The position numbers and the translations under genes were made by a program. A model generated the notes under the pieces. That model was not told the DNA's origin. It made no database searches and saw only the letters and a program-made list of their open reading frames with translations. Of a stretch of DNA of 8,424 bases, positions 1,366-7,676 are shown piece after piece. Position 1 is the stretch's first letter. The number at the start of each line of letters is the position of its first letter. Source of the DNA: a bacterium (GTDB taxonomy: Bacteria > UBP15 > UBA6099 > DSWB01); contig JAGUYV010000187.1 of the NCBI GenBank assembly GCA_020061125.1, positions 1 to 8,424 of the forward strand. The letters are read 5' to 3'.

Positions 1366-1467
1366 CGGCCTGCGGCTTTTATTCGATATTCGAGATGCTT
1401 ATTGAAAACTCGTGGATAGAGAAACACCTTCGTTTACGATCCCCAACATGCCAAGCGCTTTTTTGAT

Positions 1468-1493
1468 GTAGGGCGCTGTTGCCGAACCGCGCC
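1468..1493 (+). repeat. REP-like element, left copy (GTAG head plus hairpin)
   Basis: The plus strand reads GTAG at 1468-1471, followed directly by a GC-rich hairpin. The arm GGCGCTGT (1472-1479) pairs with ACCGCGCC (1486-1493) around the loop TGCCGA, with one T/C mismatch. A GTAG or GGAG tetranucleotide immediately 5' of an imperfect palindrome is the known layout of REP sequences mobilised by RAYT (TnpA-REP) tyrosine transposases. The preceding bases TTTTGAT are also shared with the right copy. The last two bases of the hairpin coincide with the proposed left end of the insertion sequence. Confidence 0.65.
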
Positions 1494-1516
1494 TGTCTTT
1501 TGGGGGTCTATTGAAA

Positions 1517-1537
1517 CCCGCATTACCCATATCAAAA
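1517..1537 (+). repeat. Subterminal inverted repeat of the IS, left arm
   Basis: These 21 bases match the reverse complement of 3045-3065 at 18 positions, sharing the block CCATATCAAAA. They sit 25 nt inside the proposed left end. Such repeats are candidate transposase-binding sites. Confidence 0.65.
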
Positions 1538-1565
1538 ACCATTATGCTGTAAGAAATCGGCAAAA

Positions 1566-1605
1566 ATGCCCCTGAACAAAGTATGATTTCACATTCAAGG
1601 GGCAT
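1566..1605 (+). promoter_or_regulatory. Hairpin that covers the transposase ribosome binding site
   Basis: ATGCCCCTGAA (1566-1576) pairs with TTCAAGGGGCAT (1594-1605), leaving one bulged base and a 17-nt loop. The right arm contains the Shine-Dalgarno sequence AAGGGG (1597-1602), spaced 7 nt before ATG 1610. It also covers the in-frame ATG at 1604. In a transcript reading in from outside, the site would be hidden. This is a known way for insertion sequences to avoid expression from neighbouring promoters. A transcript starting between the arms would escape it. The function is inferred, while the pairing is seen directly. Confidence 0.55.
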
Positions 1606-1609
1606 GGTA

Positions 1610-2864
1610 ATGGCAAAATCACAGGGTGAAAGCCTTAGCGTGGATTTCAACAGCAGTTTGAAGCTGAAATTTAAAGGTTCCAAAGTCACATCCGATGGGC
1701 ATACCGTGAACTGGATGAAGCGCTGGGACTATCCGATGCAGCGCCTGCGATTTTTCAAGACAAGCGCACAGGGCGAAACATTCGACATGACATGTTCATT
1801 GTTGCGCCAGTCCGCGTACAGTTGCCTTGCGGGATACGAAGATGTGAACGATGCAGAGCGGTTGTCCTTCGACCCTGCCAGGCATGTTGCACTGGAAAGA
1901 AACCCGAAAAGAACGCGGCAAGCACGAACACCTTGGAACGCTAAGAAACGGAAATGCTGACCACTGAAGACAACCTTGCCAGCCTTGAAGAACTCAACAG
2001 GCAGTGGGTGCGTAAAGCCGTGGGCAGGCCGGCGGAAAAGAGAATCATTCTGGACATGGGCAATTCGGAAAGCCCGGTGTACGGGGAGCAGGAAGGCTCT
2101 GCATACAACGGTCACTTCGACATCCGGTGCTATCACCCGCTGTTCTGGTTCAACCAGCACGGAGACTGTGAGGGAGCAATGCTGCGGCGCGGCAATGTGC
2201 ACAGCGCAAGTATTTTCGTGGCGATGCGGCTTTCGCAATCCCTGAAATCTACGAACATCTTGAAGACCATTCGTTCCAGTACGCCATCCGGCTGCCCGCT
2301 AATCAAATCCTACAGGAACAAATCAAATATCTGCTGACCCGCTCCGTGGGGCGTCTATCCAAAGAACCGGACATCTATCATGACGAATTCATGTATCAGG
2401 CGGCAAACTGGAACAGAAAACGGCGGGTGGTCTTAAAAAGTGGAGTGGCATTGCGGAGAGCTTTTTCACGGGTCGGATTTATCGTGACCAACATGAAGGC
2501 CCACAAATGTGATGTCGTGCATTTCTACAACCAGCGTGGCACTGTCGAGCAGTGGCTGAAGGAAGGCAAGTACGCCCTGAACTGGACACGGCTGTCCTGC
2601 AAGCGGTTTGCCGCAGATCAAGTGCGCCTCGCCCTGTTCGTGCTGGCATACAATCTCGGCAACTTCCTGCGGCGGCTGGCACTGCCCAAGTCTGACAGCC
2701 AATGGTCGCTGCGAAGCCTTCAGGTTGAACTGGTCAAAATAGTCGCAAAGGGCATAAGCCACAGCAATTACACTCACTTCCGGATGGCGGAAGTCGCCGT
2801 GAGCAGGGAACTTTTTGAGCGAATCCTGTTGCGAATCAACAGATTGCGATGCTGTACGGCATGA
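1610..2864 (+). pseudogene. IS1380-family transposase, multiply frameshifted and deleted
   Basis: The family sequence can be followed across all three frames. The N-terminus is MAKSQGES. Blocks with family matches are LLRQSAYSCLAGYEDVNDAERL, FETEMLTTEDNLASLEEL (after a stop), GEQEGSAYNGHFDI, YFRGDAAFAIPEIYE, HFYNQRGTVEQWLKEGK, LFVLAYNLGNFLRRLALPKS and MAEVAVSRELF. Lesions read against the family pattern are: loss near 1697 (SDG then YRELDEALGLSDA in frame 1); a likely 2-nt loss near 1785; a 1-nt loss near 1890-1896; TAA at 1942-1944 where the family has Phe or Leu; a deletion of about 19 codons near 2204 between NVHSA and RKYFRGD; an extra A in the run 2435-2439; and a compensating lost C near 2467. 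The first catalytic block reads LDMGNSESP where related proteins have LDMDSSESP. The second Asp (RGDAAF) and the Glu (VEQWLKEGK) remain. The frame is open to the TGA at 2862-2864. It is not functional. Confidence 0.88.
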
Positions 2865-3044
2865 AAAGACACACTGCCAGAAAATTCACTGGACAACTGC
2901 GCTCTGTGGACTTTTTTCCCGGCATGGTTGTGCATTTGAGGAAGGATTTTGTAATATATGTGGCAGAAAATCGGCTCTCATGCAATCAGACCCGCATGGG
3001 CATACGAAACTCGGCGGATCAGGGGCTGGTTGGAGTCAGGATAA

Positions 3045-3065
3045 TTTTGATATGGAAAATGTGGG
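3045..3065 (-). repeat. Subterminal inverted repeat of the IS, right arm
   Basis: This is the partner of 1517-1537, with 18 of 21 positions matching in inverted orientation. It lies 28 nt inside the proposed right end (CCAGG, 3089-3093). Confidence 0.65.
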
Positions 3066-3277
3066 TGAACATCATTGCATAGCACTTTCCAGGGATTTAG
3101 CGAGCGGTTGCGGCGCATAAGAAATCCTCGGGGCGGTCGGAAAAAGGCTGTGATTAGCGTAGCAGTAACTTTACGGGATCAAGCACGATGAACCGAAAAT
3201 CGTTTCATTGTATGGCAGGGATCGCATCAAGCGCCCGTATCAACAACACGGTGCAAAACAAAGTCGAACAGGAAAAA

Positions 3278-3284
3278 GGGAGAG
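3278..3284 (+). promoter_or_regulatory. Shine-Dalgarno site deciding the hemopexin-like gene start
   Basis: GGGAGAG lies 8 nt before ATG 3293. Together with the signal peptide that begins there, it selects 3293 over the in-frame ATG at 3188, which has only a weak upstream site and would bury the signal peptide behind 35 polar residues. Confidence 0.75.
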
Positions 3285-3292
3285 TAATTTTC

Positions 3293-4060
3293 ATGAAAAG
3301 CATGAGACATGCGGTGACGGTCCTTCTTTTCGCAGTTGTGCAGGCTCTGATGAGTGCGTCTGCGCATGCCAGTTGCTTGGTTTCCGTGGATGCGGCCGTC
3401 AACTGGGGAAATGGCAAAGCGTATTTCTTCGGCTACATCCCGGATAACGACCAACTGAATTATGTGCGCTATGACATCAAAGCAGACAAAGCCGATCCAG
3501 GATACCCCAAGCCCGTGAATAACAGCACCTGGCCGGGGCTGGGCCTGGACACAATCACCGCTGCGGTGAACGGGGGCAACGGCAAAGCGTATTTCTTCGG
3601 CTACATTGATGGCGTTGATGAATTGCAATATGTGAGCTACGACATTAAAACCGACAGAGCTGACGAGGGTTACCCCTACCCGGTTGACGATGTATTCTGG
3701 CCAGACTTAAGCGACCTGTCCGATATCACAGCAACACTGGATCTGGGTGACGGCTTTGTGATTTTCATGGGATACAACGGTGCGATTTCCGAGAACCAGC
3801 TTGGCATCCTGTACAACATAAATACCTTCGCTAAGCTCGACGAGGTCCAGGAAATAAACCCTGAAGAAATGGGCGGAAGCCAACTCGATTTCATCTCCAG
3901 CGCCGTGGAATGGGGCGACAAATTTTATCTGTTCGGCTGGATCGAGGGCGAAGATTACCCCTTGTACGAACGATTCACCACAAGCACCATGACCATGGAT
4001 GCTGATTACCCGCGCGTGATGGATTCGGATATGTGGCCCGGCATGGGATGCAGTTACTGA
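3293..4060 (+). CDS. Secreted four-bladed hemopexin-like repeat protein
   Basis: The precursor has 255 residues. A signal peptide (MKSMRHAVTVLLFAVVQALM, then SASAHA) has its likely cleavage after Ala26, leaving about 229 residues outside the cytoplasm. The mature part is four repeats of about 55 residues, at about 33-85, 86-143, 144-198 and 199-252. Repeats 1 and 2 follow the hemopexin pattern DAAVNWGNGKAYFF, Y-x-x-YDI, GYP-x-PV, WPGL or WPDL. Repeats 3 and 4 are more diverged, and repeat 4 keeps YPRVMDSDMWPGM. The only cysteines in the mature chain are Cys28 and Cys253, where the disulfide that closes a hemopexin propeller is expected. Hemopexin domains form a four-bladed beta-propeller that binds proteins or small ligands, such as haem or polyamines in plant albumin-2 proteins. 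The ligand here is unknown. Each blade has extra residues between the FFG strand and the next Y-containing strand. The gene is monocistronic, lies between a dead IS and a terminator, and is poorer in GC than its flanks, so it was probably acquired. Confidence 0.85.
   Translation: MKSMRHAVTVLLFAVVQALMSASAHASCLVSVDAAVNWGNGKAYFFGYIPDNDQLNYVRYDIKADKADPGYPKPVNNSTWPGLGLDTITAAVNGGNGKAYFFGYIDGVDELQYVSYDIKTDRADEGYPYPVDDVFWPDLSDLSDITATLDLGDGFVIFMGYNGAISENQLGILYNINTFAKLDEVQEINPEEMGGSQLDFISSAVEWGDKFYLFGWIEGEDYPLYERFTTSTMTMDADYPRVMDSDMWPGMGCSY
3413..3438 (+). repeat. 26-bp exact direct repeat in the hemopexin-like gene, copy 1
   Basis: This is identical to 3581-3606, 168 bp (56 codons) away and in frame. 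It encodes GKAYFFGYI of blade 1. The match is longer than protein conservation alone requires, which suggests a fairly recent blade duplication or gene conversion. Confidence 0.85.
3581..3606 (+). repeat. 26-bp exact direct repeat in the hemopexin-like gene, copy 2
   Basis: This is identical to 3413-3438 and encodes the same strand in blade 2. The bases on either side differ between the two copies. Confidence 0.85.
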
Positions 4061-4099: not shown

Positions 4100-4130
4100 A
4101 GGCCTCCCCGAACCGGGGAGGCCTCTTTCA
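4100..4130 (+). terminator. Intrinsic terminator of the hemopexin-like gene
   Basis: There is a perfect 11-bp GC-rich stem: AGGCCTCCCCG (4100-4110) pairs with CGGGGAGGCCT (4114-4124) around the 3-nt loop AAC. CTTTCATT follows. It lies 39 nt after the stop codon at 4058-4060. The T-run is short, but the stem is very strong. Confidence 0.8.
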
Positions 4131-4442
4131 TTGGGCTGGTCTGAAACCCGAAAAGTGGCCCTGAAGAAAAGCCTGTGCCAAGACCATATTAGAAAATTGG
4201 TTGAAAATAGCCTCGAAAAAACCGGCTATCATGCAAGTCTCTCCATCACACCATTTAGAACTTGTTTTGCCGCGAAAAAATTGACAAACGGGACTTGGTT
4301 CCGGCGCGGTCGCCGAACCGCGCCCTACATCAAAACATTCAACTGATCAGCACATACAACATGATGATATAATCTCGGAGTTGCGGGAACAGCCCCTCTG
4401 CTTTTTGCGACCGCAAGACTCTTCAAGATCCATGATTCTTGA
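4131..4442. other. Non-coding gap between the terminator and sdhB
   Basis: Apart from the right REP-like copy I see no gene here. The 71-residue ORF at 4131-4346 reads straight through the REP hairpin, has no ribosome binding site and resembles no family, so it is not called. TATAAT occurs at 4368-4373 on the plus strand. It has no -35 partner and no gene downstream on that strand. No clear terminator for the sdh operon is visible on the minus strand. Confidence 0.6.
4303..4328 (-). repeat. REP-like element, right copy, inverted
   Basis: Arms GGCGCGGT (4303-4310) and ACCGCGCC (4317-4324) form a perfect 8-bp stem around the loop CGCCGA. On the minus strand the GTAG head is at 4328-4325, preceded by TTTTGAT just as in the left copy. 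The first 16 bases, TTTTGATGTAGGGCGC, are identical to the left copy in inverted orientation, and over 35 positions 29 agree. The hairpin here is more perfect than the left one. Confidence 0.7.
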
Positions 4443-5195
4443 TTATTTCCGCAACGAACCGAAAAGCGCCAGCCTTGTGGTCTGGCGGCAGATGTCCGCG
4501 ATGGAATCCGTGAGCGGGATGTTCTTGGGGCATGCGTGGATGCAGTTCTGCGCGTTGCCGCAGTCCGTGACGCCGCCCGGCCCCATGAGCGCGCGCAGGC
4601 GCAAATCCTTGTGCATGGCGCCTGTGGGGTGCATGTTGAACAGGCGCGCCTGGCTGATTGCGGACGGGCCGATGAAGGGTGAGCGCGAGTTCACCTGCGG
4701 GCAGGCGTCCAGGCAGCAGCCGCAGGTCATGCACCGGGACAGGATGTACATGAGCGCCTGCCGGTGCGGGCTGATGAGCGGGCCGGGGCCGGCCGCGTGC
4801 GTGCCGTCAATGTCAATCCAGGCGCGCACGCGCTTCAAATCCTCGAACATGCGCGAGCGGTCCACATGCAAATCCCGCACCACCGGGAACTTGGCCATGG
4901 GCTGCAGCACGATGGGATGCTCCAGCTCGTCAATGAGCGCGGAGCAGGCCTGCTGCGTGCGGCCGTTGATGCGCATGCTGCACGCGCCGCACACTTCTTC
5001 GAGGCACGAGCACTCCCACGCCACGGGCGTGGTGCGCTTGTTCTGCGCGTTCACCGGGTTGGCCTGGATCTCCATGAGCGCCGAGATCACATTCATGTTC
5101 TTGCGGTACGGGATCTCGAAGGTTTCCCAGAAGGAGGCCTTGTCCGGCCCGGGCTGCCGCTGGATTTTCAGGATGATGGATTTTTCATTCGCCAT
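4443..5195 (-). CDS. sdhB: Succinate dehydrogenase iron-sulfur subunit
   Basis: The product has 250 residues, the normal length. It carries electrons from the FAD of SdhA to the quinone site through three clusters. The [2Fe-2S] ligands are Cys64, Cys69, Cys72 and Cys84 (CLEEVCGAC, then 11 residues, then C). The [4Fe-4S] ligands are Cys155, Cys158, Cys161 and Cys165 (CMTCGCCLDACP). The [3Fe-4S] ligands are Cys212, Cys218 and Cys222 (CGNAQNCIHACP). The extra Cys62 before the first cluster (ECSCLEEVCGAC) resembles the Bacillus-type subunit, in agreement with the dihaem SdhC here. The start ATG (5193-5195) has GAGG 6 nt upstream. The gene follows sdhA by 14 nt, so the two are co-transcribed and probably translationally coupled. 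It is the last gene of the operon. Fumarate reductase activity in the same complex type cannot be excluded. Confidence 0.96.
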   Translation of the reverse strand: MANEKSIILKIQRQPGPDKASFWETFEIPYRKNMNVISALMEIQANPVNAQNKRTTPVAWECSCLEEVCGACSMRINGRTQQACSALIDELEHPIVLQPMAKFPVVRDLHVDRSRMFEDLKRVRAWIDIDGTHAAGPGPLISPHRQALMYILSRCMTCGCCLDACPQVNSRSPFIGPSAISQARLFNMHPTGAMHKDLRLRALMGPGGVTDCGNAQNCIHACPKNIPLTDSIADICRQTTRLALFGSLRK

Positions 5196-5209
5196 GGCGC
5201 GCCTCGCGG

Positions 5210-6961
5210 TTATTTTTCCACATCGTATTTGCGTTCCCTGGGGGGAATGAACTGAATGTCAACTTCTTCGTAGGTCAGAACCGGGCCGTGGGGGGAATGC
5301 GCGGCCCGCGTGGTCTTGAGAAAGTTCGCATCGTCGCGGTCCGGGAATTCGGGCTTGTAATGCGCGCCGCGGCTTTCGTTGCGCGCCAGCGCGCCCAGTG
5401 TGACGACCCGCGCCAGTGCGATCATGTTCTCCAACTGGCGCGTGAACACCAGGGGCTGGTTCTTCCACAGGGCCTTGTCCGGAACGCCCACCCTGTTTTC
5501 GTAGCGCTCCTTGATTTCGAGCAGCTTTTCATCGGTGAGCTTGAGCTTGGGATTCTCGCGGATCACGGTCACATTTTCGGTCATGAGATTTCCCATTTCG
5601 CGCCACAGGGCGTAGGGGTTCTCTGTTCCGTCCTTTTTCAGCCACTCGTTGTTGGCGTCCCGCTCCCGTTTTTCGGCCTGCTGCAGAAGCGTGACCGCGT
5701 CGGTCGGGTTCTGGAGGCCGGACAGGTATTTGACCGCCTCTGGGCCGGCCAGGAACCCGGCGTGGATGCAGCTCAAGAGGCTGTTGGCGCCCAGGCGGTT
5801 GGCGCCGTGGTACTGGTAGTCGCATTCCCCGGCGGCAAACAGGCCCGCAACATTGGTCATCTGCCCGAAGTCCACCCACAGCCCGCCCATGGAATAGTGA
5901 ACGGCCGGGAAAATCTGCATGGGGATTTTGCGTGGATCGTCGCCCACGAACTTTTCGTAGATTTCGAGCACGCCTCCCAGCTTGCTGGTGAGGTACGCTG
6001 GGTCTAGGTGGGAGACATCAAGATACACCACATTGCGGCCCTCGATGCCCATGTCCAGCTCGTACACCACTTTGAAGATGGCGCGGGTCGCGATGTCGCG
6101 CGGCACCAGGTTGCCATATGCGGGATACCATTCTTCGAGGAAGTACCAGGGCTTGCCGTCTTTGGGCACCCACACGCGGCCGCCTTCGCCGCGCACGCTT
6201 TCGGAAATGAGCCGCCGCTTGTCTTCGCCCTGAATGGCCGTGGGGTGCACCTGTATGAACTCGCCGTTGGCGTAGTCCACGCCGTGGCGGAAGCACGCGC
6301 CCGCGGCGCTGCCCGTGTTGATGAAGCTGTTGGTGGTGTTGGTTCCGTAAACCAGGCCGGGGCCTCCCGTGGCCATGATGACCGCGTCCGCGGGGAACGC
6401 GCGCACATCCATGCCGTCCAGGCTCATGGCCACGATGCCGCGGCAGCGCCGGTCATCGTCAATGACCGGAACCAGGAATTCCCAGAACTCGTATTTTGTG
6501 ACCAGGCCCTGGGCCTCGAAGCGGCGCACCTGCTCGTCGAGCGCGTACATGAGCTGCTGTCCGGTGGTTGCGCCGGCGAACGCCGTGCGCTTGAATTTCG
6601 CGCCGCCGAACGCGCGCACATCGAGCCGGCCCTCGCTGGTGCGGTTAAAGGTCACGCCCATGCGGTCAAGCAGATCTATGATTGCAGGCGCGGCCTCGCA
6701 CATGCCCTTGACCGGCGTCTGGTTGGCCAGAAAATCCCCGCCGTAAATGGTGTCGTCAAAATGCTCCCAGGTGCTGTCGCCCTGCCCGTGCGGGTCCGTG
6801 GCCGCGTTGATGCCGCCCTGCGCGCACACCGAATGGCTGCGCCGCACGGGCACCATGGAGAACAGCTCCACCTGCGCGCCGGACTCGGCGATCTTGAGCG
6901 CCGCGGACAACCCCGCAAGCCCTCCGCCCACCACGATGACTTTCTTGCCGTTTCCGCCCAT
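5210..6961 (-). CDS. sdhA: Succinate dehydrogenase flavoprotein subunit
   Basis: The product has 583 residues, complete. It oxidises succinate to fumarate on the cytoplasmic side of the membrane. The FAD-binding Rossmann motif GGGLAG is at 12-17. His43 in RSHSVCAQGG is the covalent FAD attachment residue of this family. Other family blocks are AFAGATTGQQL (127-137), HPTAI (239-243), ESVRGEGG (254-261), VPRDIATRA (286-294, with the likely catalytic Arg288), AVHYSMGG (353-360) and NRLGANSLLS (388-397). By family knowledge, His239, Arg288, His355 and Arg389 line the dicarboxylate site. The N-terminal style (LFSMVPVRRSHSVCAQGGINAA) is that of the group found with single-subunit dihaem cytochromes. 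The gene lies 31 nt after sdhC, with GGGAG about 10 nt before its ATG. Confidence 0.97.
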   Translation of the reverse strand: MGGNGKKVIVVGGGLAGLSAALKIAESGAQVELFSMVPVRRSHSVCAQGGINAATDPHGQGDSTWEHFDDTIYGGDFLANQTPVKGMCEAAPAIIDLLDRMGVTFNRTSEGRLDVRAFGGAKFKRTAFAGATTGQQLMYALDEQVRRFEAQGLVTKYEFWEFLVPVIDDDRRCRGIVAMSLDGMDVRAFPADAVIMATGGPGLVYGTNTTNSFINTGSAAGACFRHGVDYANGEFIQVHPTAIQGEDKRRLISESVRGEGGRVWVPKDGKPWYFLEEWYPAYGNLVPRDIATRAIFKVVYELDMGIEGRNVVYLDVSHLDPAYLTSKLGGVLEIYEKFVGDDPRKIPMQIFPAVHYSMGGLWVDFGQMTNVAGLFAAGECDYQYHGANRLGANSLLSCIHAGFLAGPEAVKYLSGLQNPTDAVTLLQQAEKRERDANNEWLKKDGTENPYALWREMGNLMTENVTVIRENPKLKLTDEKLLEIKERYENRVGVPDKALWKNQPLVFTRQLENMIALARVVTLGALARNESRGAHYKPEFPDRDDANFLKTTRAAHSPHGPVLTYEEVDIQFIPPRERKYDVEK

Positions 6962-6992
6962 TCTTCAGACGCTCCCGTCAGGATGTCTTTTG

Positions 6993-7676
6993 TCAAATGC
7001 TGATAATCAGCGCCTTGCCCACGAACGCCAGGAGCGCGTTCACGCCGATGAACGACAGCGCAAGCCCCACGGCCGCGCACGCCCAGGCGCTTGCGCGCTG
7101 CGCGCGGGGTCCGATGGTTATGCCCCACGACACGCAGAAGTTCCAGATGCCGTTGGCGAAGTGAAACACGGACGCCAGCACGCCCGCGATGTAGAACACC
7201 ATCACCCATGTGACCGCCAGGTGCTGGCGCACCAGGTCGAAGGTCACATGCAGGTCCGGGTTGATCATGCTGGCGATGCGGAAATTCCACAGGTGCACCA
7301 CCACGAATATGAAGGTGAACAGGCCCGTGACGCGCTGGATTACATACATCCAGTTGCGGCCGTAGCGGTACGCGCCCGTGTTCACCGACGCTTCCGTGGT
7401 GACGAACACGCCGTACACCCCGTGGAACAGTATCGGAATCATGATGAACAGAATTTCGATGACGATAAGGTACGGCAGGCCGCGCAGCACGCCCACCGCG
7501 GCGTTGAACACGCGCTCGCCCCCGGCCGTGGCCGCCAGCGAGTTCACCGACAGGTGCTCGATCAGAAACAGGCCCACGGGAATGATGCCGAAAAGGGAGT
7601 GCAGCTTGCGCAGCTTGAAATGGACGGGAACCGTGTCCGTGGCAGTGTGTTCCGCTGTGGCAGTTATGGGAATCAC
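6993..7676 (-). CDS. sdhC: Succinate dehydrogenase cytochrome b558 membrane anchor
   Basis: The product has 227 residues and about five membrane helices, like the single-anchor (type B) subunit of Bacillus SQR. Family blocks are RKLHSLFGIIPVGLFLIEHL, YRYGRNWMYVIQRVTG, VVHLWNFRIASMI and VFHFANGIWNF. By comparison with Bacillus SdhC, the ligands of the two b haems are His41 (IEHL), His85 (LFHGVYG), His128 (VVHLW) and His172 (VFHFANG), and all are present. The protein anchors SdhAB and passes electrons to quinone. Type B enzymes of this kind usually work with menaquinone, so menaquinone is likely but not shown. The only usable start upstream of the first helix is GTG at 7674-7676. The frame is open for about 18 more codons without ATG, GTG or TTG. 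GAGG directly abuts that GTG, an unusually short spacing, so the exact start is less certain than the gene. Confidence 0.95.
   Translation of the reverse strand: MIPITATAEHTATDTVPVHFKLRKLHSLFGIIPVGLFLIEHLSVNSLAATAGGERVFNAAVGVLRGLPYLIVIEILFIMIPILFHGVYGVFVTTEASVNTGAYRYGRNWMYVIQRVTGLFTFIFVVVHLWNFRIASMINPDLHVTFDLVRQHLAVTWVMVFYIAGVLASVFHFANGIWNFCVSWGITIGPRAQRASAWACAAVGLALSFIGVNALLAFVGKALIISI

Follow-up and report, generated by a model that had tools for sequence, protein, structure and literature searches.

Does the protein encoded at positions 3293–4060 of a bacterial contig adopt the hemopexin fold, and is the same element of that fold enlarged in each of its blades? The DNA analyzed here (the window), 8,424 bases long, makes up a whole contig of a MAG that is 79% complete, and a reading from sequence only had proposed that it encodes a secreted hemopexin-like propeller with an extra loop in every blade. 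The hemopexin fold itself is known; what is new is that one hairpin exceeds, in each of the four blades, the length that it has in any bacterial relative found. Hemopexin proteins are seldom met in bacteria and few of them have been characterized, and four lengthened hairpins that are alike provide a natural comparison with close relatives, asking whether a new ligand could be met by a four-fold crown. They also bear on whether the likeness among the repeats of a propeller is maintained by amplification of a single blade or by blades exchanging sequence.

Results

Gene and mature protein

The start at ATG 3293 is favored over an upstream in-frame ATG at 3188 because an RBS-like GGGAGAG lies 8 bases before the former (Table 1). 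The N terminus reads as a signal peptide, as had been noted earlier, and export of the product with cleavage between AHA and SC is predicted on this basis. The mature protein would have 229 residues, is acidic throughout (pI 4.05), and contains two cysteines only, Cys28 and Cys253, as the sequence-only reading had stated; its C terminus lies 2 residues beyond Cys253. Reading of the sequence finds no histidine in the mature protein, both histidines (His6 and His25) being part of the signal peptide. A search of Rfam gave no match.

Table 1. Coordinates of features in the window, with the basis for each assignment
Feature	Position	Strand	Basis or detail
CDS, 255 aa, predicted exported four-bladed hemopexin-type propeller	3293..4060	+	translation, PF00045, model and fold match
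RBS-like GGGAGAG	3278..3284	+	8 nt 5' of ATG 3293, sequence reading
Signal peptide, putative cleavage after A26	3293..3370	+	read from sequence, no predictor run
Cys28 codon, blade 1 start	3374..3376	+	
Cys253 codon, blade 4 end	4049..4051	+	
Terminator-like stem-loop 3' of gene	4100..4124	+	11 pairs, 9 of them G-C; such sites at most as numerous as in shuffled DNA
Blade 1	3383..3544	+	
Blade 2	3551..3712	+	
Blade 3, divergent	3722..3883	+	profile-negative, visible in model
Blade 4	3890..4048	+	
Blade 1 hairpin GYIPDNDQLN	3431..3460	+	6 residues longer than relatives; strands 16-23 and 28-35 in model
Blade 2 hairpin GYIDGVDELQ	3599..3628	+	
Blade 3 hairpin GYNGAISENQLG	3770..3805	+	strands 129-136 and 143-149 in model
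Blade 4 hairpin GWIEGEDYPL	3935..3964	+	
Decayed IS1380-type insertion sequence	1516..3066	+	22-nt terminal inverted repeats 1516-1537 / 3045-3066
Transposase split into three ORFs	1583-1960, 1954-2337, 2346-2864	+	PF13701 DDE_Tnp_1_4, consecutive pieces
33-nt inverted repeat, left arm	1461..1493	+	bounds low-GC island
33-nt inverted repeat, right arm	4303..4335	+	bounds low-GC island

Overall fold

PF00045 (Hemopexin) is the sole Pfam domain above threshold in the product (E 1.6e-6; 28.4 bits, cut-off 21.3), and each of the 17 aligned relatives matches the same family in Pfam. A search of the PDB with the single sequence weakly matched the hemopexin domains of MMPs (0.0047 at best), and a profile made from the window protein and 16 bacterial relatives matched MMP-14 at 3e-30, vitronectin at 9e-26, and hemopexin at 3e-20. 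A six-frame search of the genome with PF00045 at E <= 0.001 returned no match, not even this gene, because the extension described below splits the repeat.

The AlphaFold model, built with the bacterial relatives (pLDDT 89.9, pTM 0.88), shows four groups of strands and can be matched along its entire length to hemopexin domains of four blades. Vitronectin and MMP-13 held the top ranks in Foldseek. In VIA-align, 25 hemopexin-fold entries scored Z 16.6–21.5 (rmsd 2.0–3.1 Å over 163–195 residues), with alignments to hemopexin structures covering the whole length of the protein; the best other fold, among the remaining propellers, reached Z 9.4. A blade profile derived from the relatives alone detects blades 1, 2, and 4 but not blade 3, which is divergent. 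With Pfam, the structure model, and the fold matches in agreement, the four-bladed hemopexin fold is secure as a prediction, and two of the checks that the sequence-only reading had put forward, the PF00045 search and the structure model, came out in favor of its four-repeat propeller.

In MMPs, the hemopexin domain has one cysteine where blade 1 begins and another where blade 4 ends. Cys28 and Cys253 occupy the ends expected for the closing disulfide that is typical of hemopexin domains in animals, in keeping with what had been proposed, and the fold alignment spans both residues; their positions are consistent with a predicted Cys28–Cys253 disulfide. The corresponding disulfide of serum hemopexin, Cys27–Cys208, ties the first blade to the fourth (PMC4873976). 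Cysteines near both ends were found in 0 of ~50 relative ORFs examined, and therefore the disulfide-like pair has either been kept only here or arisen again.

Lengthened hairpins

Measured against the blade profile, blades 1, 2, and 4 are each longer by 6 residues between strands 2 and 3; the extension of blade 3 (FM-GYNGAISENQLG-ILYN) comes to about 7 or 8 by reading, its exact register being uncertain. The profile, built from relatives alone, was run on all fetched loci and gave 187 distinct blades spanning the site, from ~49 bacterial relatives. There are 0 extra residues at the site in 178 of these blades and 1 in the other 9, compared with 6 to 8 in the window protein, which bears out the claim that every blade has been enlarged. 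Insertions of 3–8 residues do occur in relative blades, at other sites. The tight turn between strands 2 and 3 is typical of the relatives without being family-defining, and it is absent from all four blades in the window.

In the model, blade 1 has strands of 8 residues joined by a 4-residue turn, and a model of the relative L002 from the same alignment has strands of 6 + 6 residues with a 2-residue turn in every blade. What had been called an extra loop is therefore a lengthened β-hairpin: the extra residues are real, but they extend the strands rather than forming only a loop. The net charges of the hairpin tips in blades 1–4 are −2, −3, −1, and −3, so that the description of these segments as acidic holds for the tips as it does for the whole mature protein. 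From propeller topology, the strand 2–3 turns would all lie on one face, as had been suggested. It is plausible that the lengthened hairpins make up a putative new binding surface, or the added length may make no difference to function.

Origin of the extension

All four hairpins begin with G-[YW]-[IN] and are equal in length, which points to one origin. Blades 1 and 2 have 26 identical bases (3413–3438 and 3581–3606) running across the hairpin start, within a surrounding region that is ~63% identical, and at least these two blades were therefore copied or homogenized with the extension already present. It is well established that propellers can be amplified from a single blade (PMC9218822). 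When the extension is masked, the four window blades form no clade, in trees too weak for a verdict. Blade 1 shares 84% identity with blades of other species and 67% with its own blade 2. The best identity to any relative blade is 0.31 for blade 3 and 0.43 for blade 4. The earlier idea that the insertion predates the blade duplications is thus unproven, and the extension may have arisen either by insertion before amplification or by spread among existing blades.

Relatives and rarity

A domain-wide sample contained a homologue in 2 of 385 other genomes, in line with the statement that hemopexin repeats are uncommon in bacteria. Seven of 395 genomes matched in the phylum of L002 (including one false match and the starting genome), one matched besides the starting genome among 297 in the phylum of L004, and none did so among 392 in the phylum of L012; six other genomes of the window's own phylum held no hemopexin homologue. 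A scan of 84,980 species genomes yielded 36 loci, in which hemopexin blades occur by themselves or together with other regions, and phages and viral contigs yielded no relatives. One weak match to blade 3, in G470 (L087), is an amidohydrolase-like protein and was set aside as a false positive. No second carrier of the extension was found in ~1,560 whole genomes, the scan of 84,980 species, or collections of plasmid, phage, and viral sequences. The proposed search for homologues sharing the loop as a defined subfamily thus produced no second member, and the extension is so far known from one sequence.

Some relatives that do not have the extension lie between an ODP/flavodoxin gene and a rubrerythrin gene (L006:4726-7439, L011:4781-7480, L016:4781-7440, and L085:651-3197), as assigned by Pfam for L006 and L011, by Pfam and reading for L016, and by reading for L085. 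A possible meaning of this flavodiiron–hemopexin–rubrerythrin neighborhood is O2/peroxide defense for a secreted hemopexin; the two papers found to join hemopexin with rubrerythrin do not, by title and abstract, deal with hemopexin genes of bacteria. In other loci (L017, L018, L020, L021, L025, and L027), the blades are joined to regions that by eye resemble amidase, phosphodiesterase, transglycosylase, or tyrosinase-type domains.

Genomic context

The gene lies in a low-GC stretch (1.4–4.4 kb) of ~50% GC between genes of 62–64%. Its own GC is 0.52 and its GC3 0.64, compared with 0.62–0.64 and 0.77–0.90 in the flanking genes. Each arm of the 33-nt inverted repeat that bounds this island is itself a hairpin; the genome holds no other close copy of the repeat, and one partial match with 3 mismatches occurs on contig C224. 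The IS1380-type element is present in a single copy in the genome, with a similar 66-base fragment on contig C363, and the hemopexin gene lies outside its inner terminal repeats. No target duplication was found. IS1380-type elements such as ISEcp1 can mobilize adjacent DNA. The low-GC island, the adjoining transposase, and the fact that the other six genomes of the phylum lack a homologue suggest that the hemopexin gene was probably acquired horizontally.

Genes for the iron-sulfur, flavoprotein, and membrane subunits of succinate dehydrogenase/fumarate reductase occupy 4443–7676 on the minus strand. The only match to sdhB (iron-sulfur subunit) within its own phylum is 28% identical; given this, a contig of 8.4 kb, and 79% completeness of the MAG, misbinning of the contig is possible.

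Discussion

The reading that we prefer, with a probability of about 0.5, is that this locus encodes an exported, single-domain four-bladed hemopexin fold with lengthened hairpins that acts as a non-enzymatic binding module and was horizontally acquired. The fold, its four blades, the extension in all of them, its absence from the sampled relatives, and the foreign base composition are computed; the export and cleavage site, the disulfide, the crown geometry, the binding role, and the horizontal acquisition we infer. The ring would serve as a rigid scaffold closed by Cys28–Cys253, and the four acidic hairpin fingers would stand around one of its faces as a crown. Outside the cytoplasm, such a crown could meet a positively charged ligand, a metal ion, or a macromolecular partner. 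The product has no catalytic domain. We give little credence to the larger claim that this protein is the first member of a hemopexin subfamily in which an acidic hairpin crown is used for binding and which is spread by a neighbor-mobilizing IS1380-type element.

Other explanations differ on what the protein is or on what it does. The low Pfam score (28.4 bits) and the failure of the profile to detect blade 3 might indicate another repeat family, such as kelch, WD40, or a lectin propeller, with a chance likeness to hemopexin. Blades 1–2, however, are 56–58% identical over ~110 residues to clear hemopexins of other phyla, Pfam yields PF00045 alone, and hemopexin folds score Z >= 16.6 as against 9.4 for others; the chance that remains is negligible, and we count this explanation as refuted at the level of these Pfam, identity, and fold tests. 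A heme or iron scavenger, like serum hemopexin, is what the family name would suggest, as would the proposal made for the photopexins of Photorhabdus (PMC2422844) and the binding of a porphyrin analogue by the plant hemopexin-fold protein DC25 (PMC6934871). Serum hemopexin ligates heme through two histidines located where its two domains meet (PMC4873976), but the mature window protein has no histidine and is a single domain, so ligation of that kind is excluded. By Pfam, the window also lacks any heme-uptake gene, and scavenging is on balance quite improbable.

An oxidative-stress protein is another candidate, in view of the deltaproteobacterial-MAG relatives whose genes sit between those for a flavodiiron-type protein and rubrerythrin and of the peroxidase activity of plant DC25 (PMC6934871). 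We find this role doubtful, since the window gene is without that neighborhood, the only two cysteines of its protein are likely paired, and the flanking enzymes are cytoplasmic in type, whereas the hemopexin is exported. The extensions could, finally, represent drift in a gene that is no longer selected, the decaying passenger of a transposon: the neighboring transposase has fallen into three ORFs, blades 3 and 4 are far removed from any relative blade, and the gene is a single copy with no near relative. An intact frame of 255 codons with a signal peptide, RBS, and terminator-like hairpin makes decay unlikely, as do extensions at the same place and of nearly the same length in four blades, which are not expected from drift.

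Closest to the window protein are hemopexin-repeat proteins, secreted and of a single domain, from deltaproteobacterial, Aminicenantes, and Riflebacteria MAGs (L002-L007, L009, L011, L016). They are like it in having three or four blades and, in most cases, a signal peptide, with 33–46% identity overall and, outside the extension, as much as 84% in a single blade; they differ in their 2-residue strand 2–3 turns, in having no Cys pair, and in that no transposase-linked context was seen. Among bacterial proteins known from the literature, photopexins A and B and Plu1645 of Photorhabdus have hemopexin-like domains (PMC2422844). Photopexins carry one or two such domains together with a PA-IIL lectin domain, a fusion that is absent from the window protein, which has no other Pfam domain above threshold. 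The hemopexin domains of MMPs and vitronectin (PF00045) match the window protein at fold Z 17–21 with 16–25% identity but, unlike it, are C-terminal parts of larger eukaryotic proteins. The best fold scores (Z 20.9–21.5) belong to the plant seed albumins DC25 (6ix1), LS-24 (3lp9), and CP4 (3oyo), which are just 18–20% identical to the window protein and likewise consist of a single four-bladed domain. These plant albumins differ among themselves in the loops that join their outermost strands (PMC6934871).
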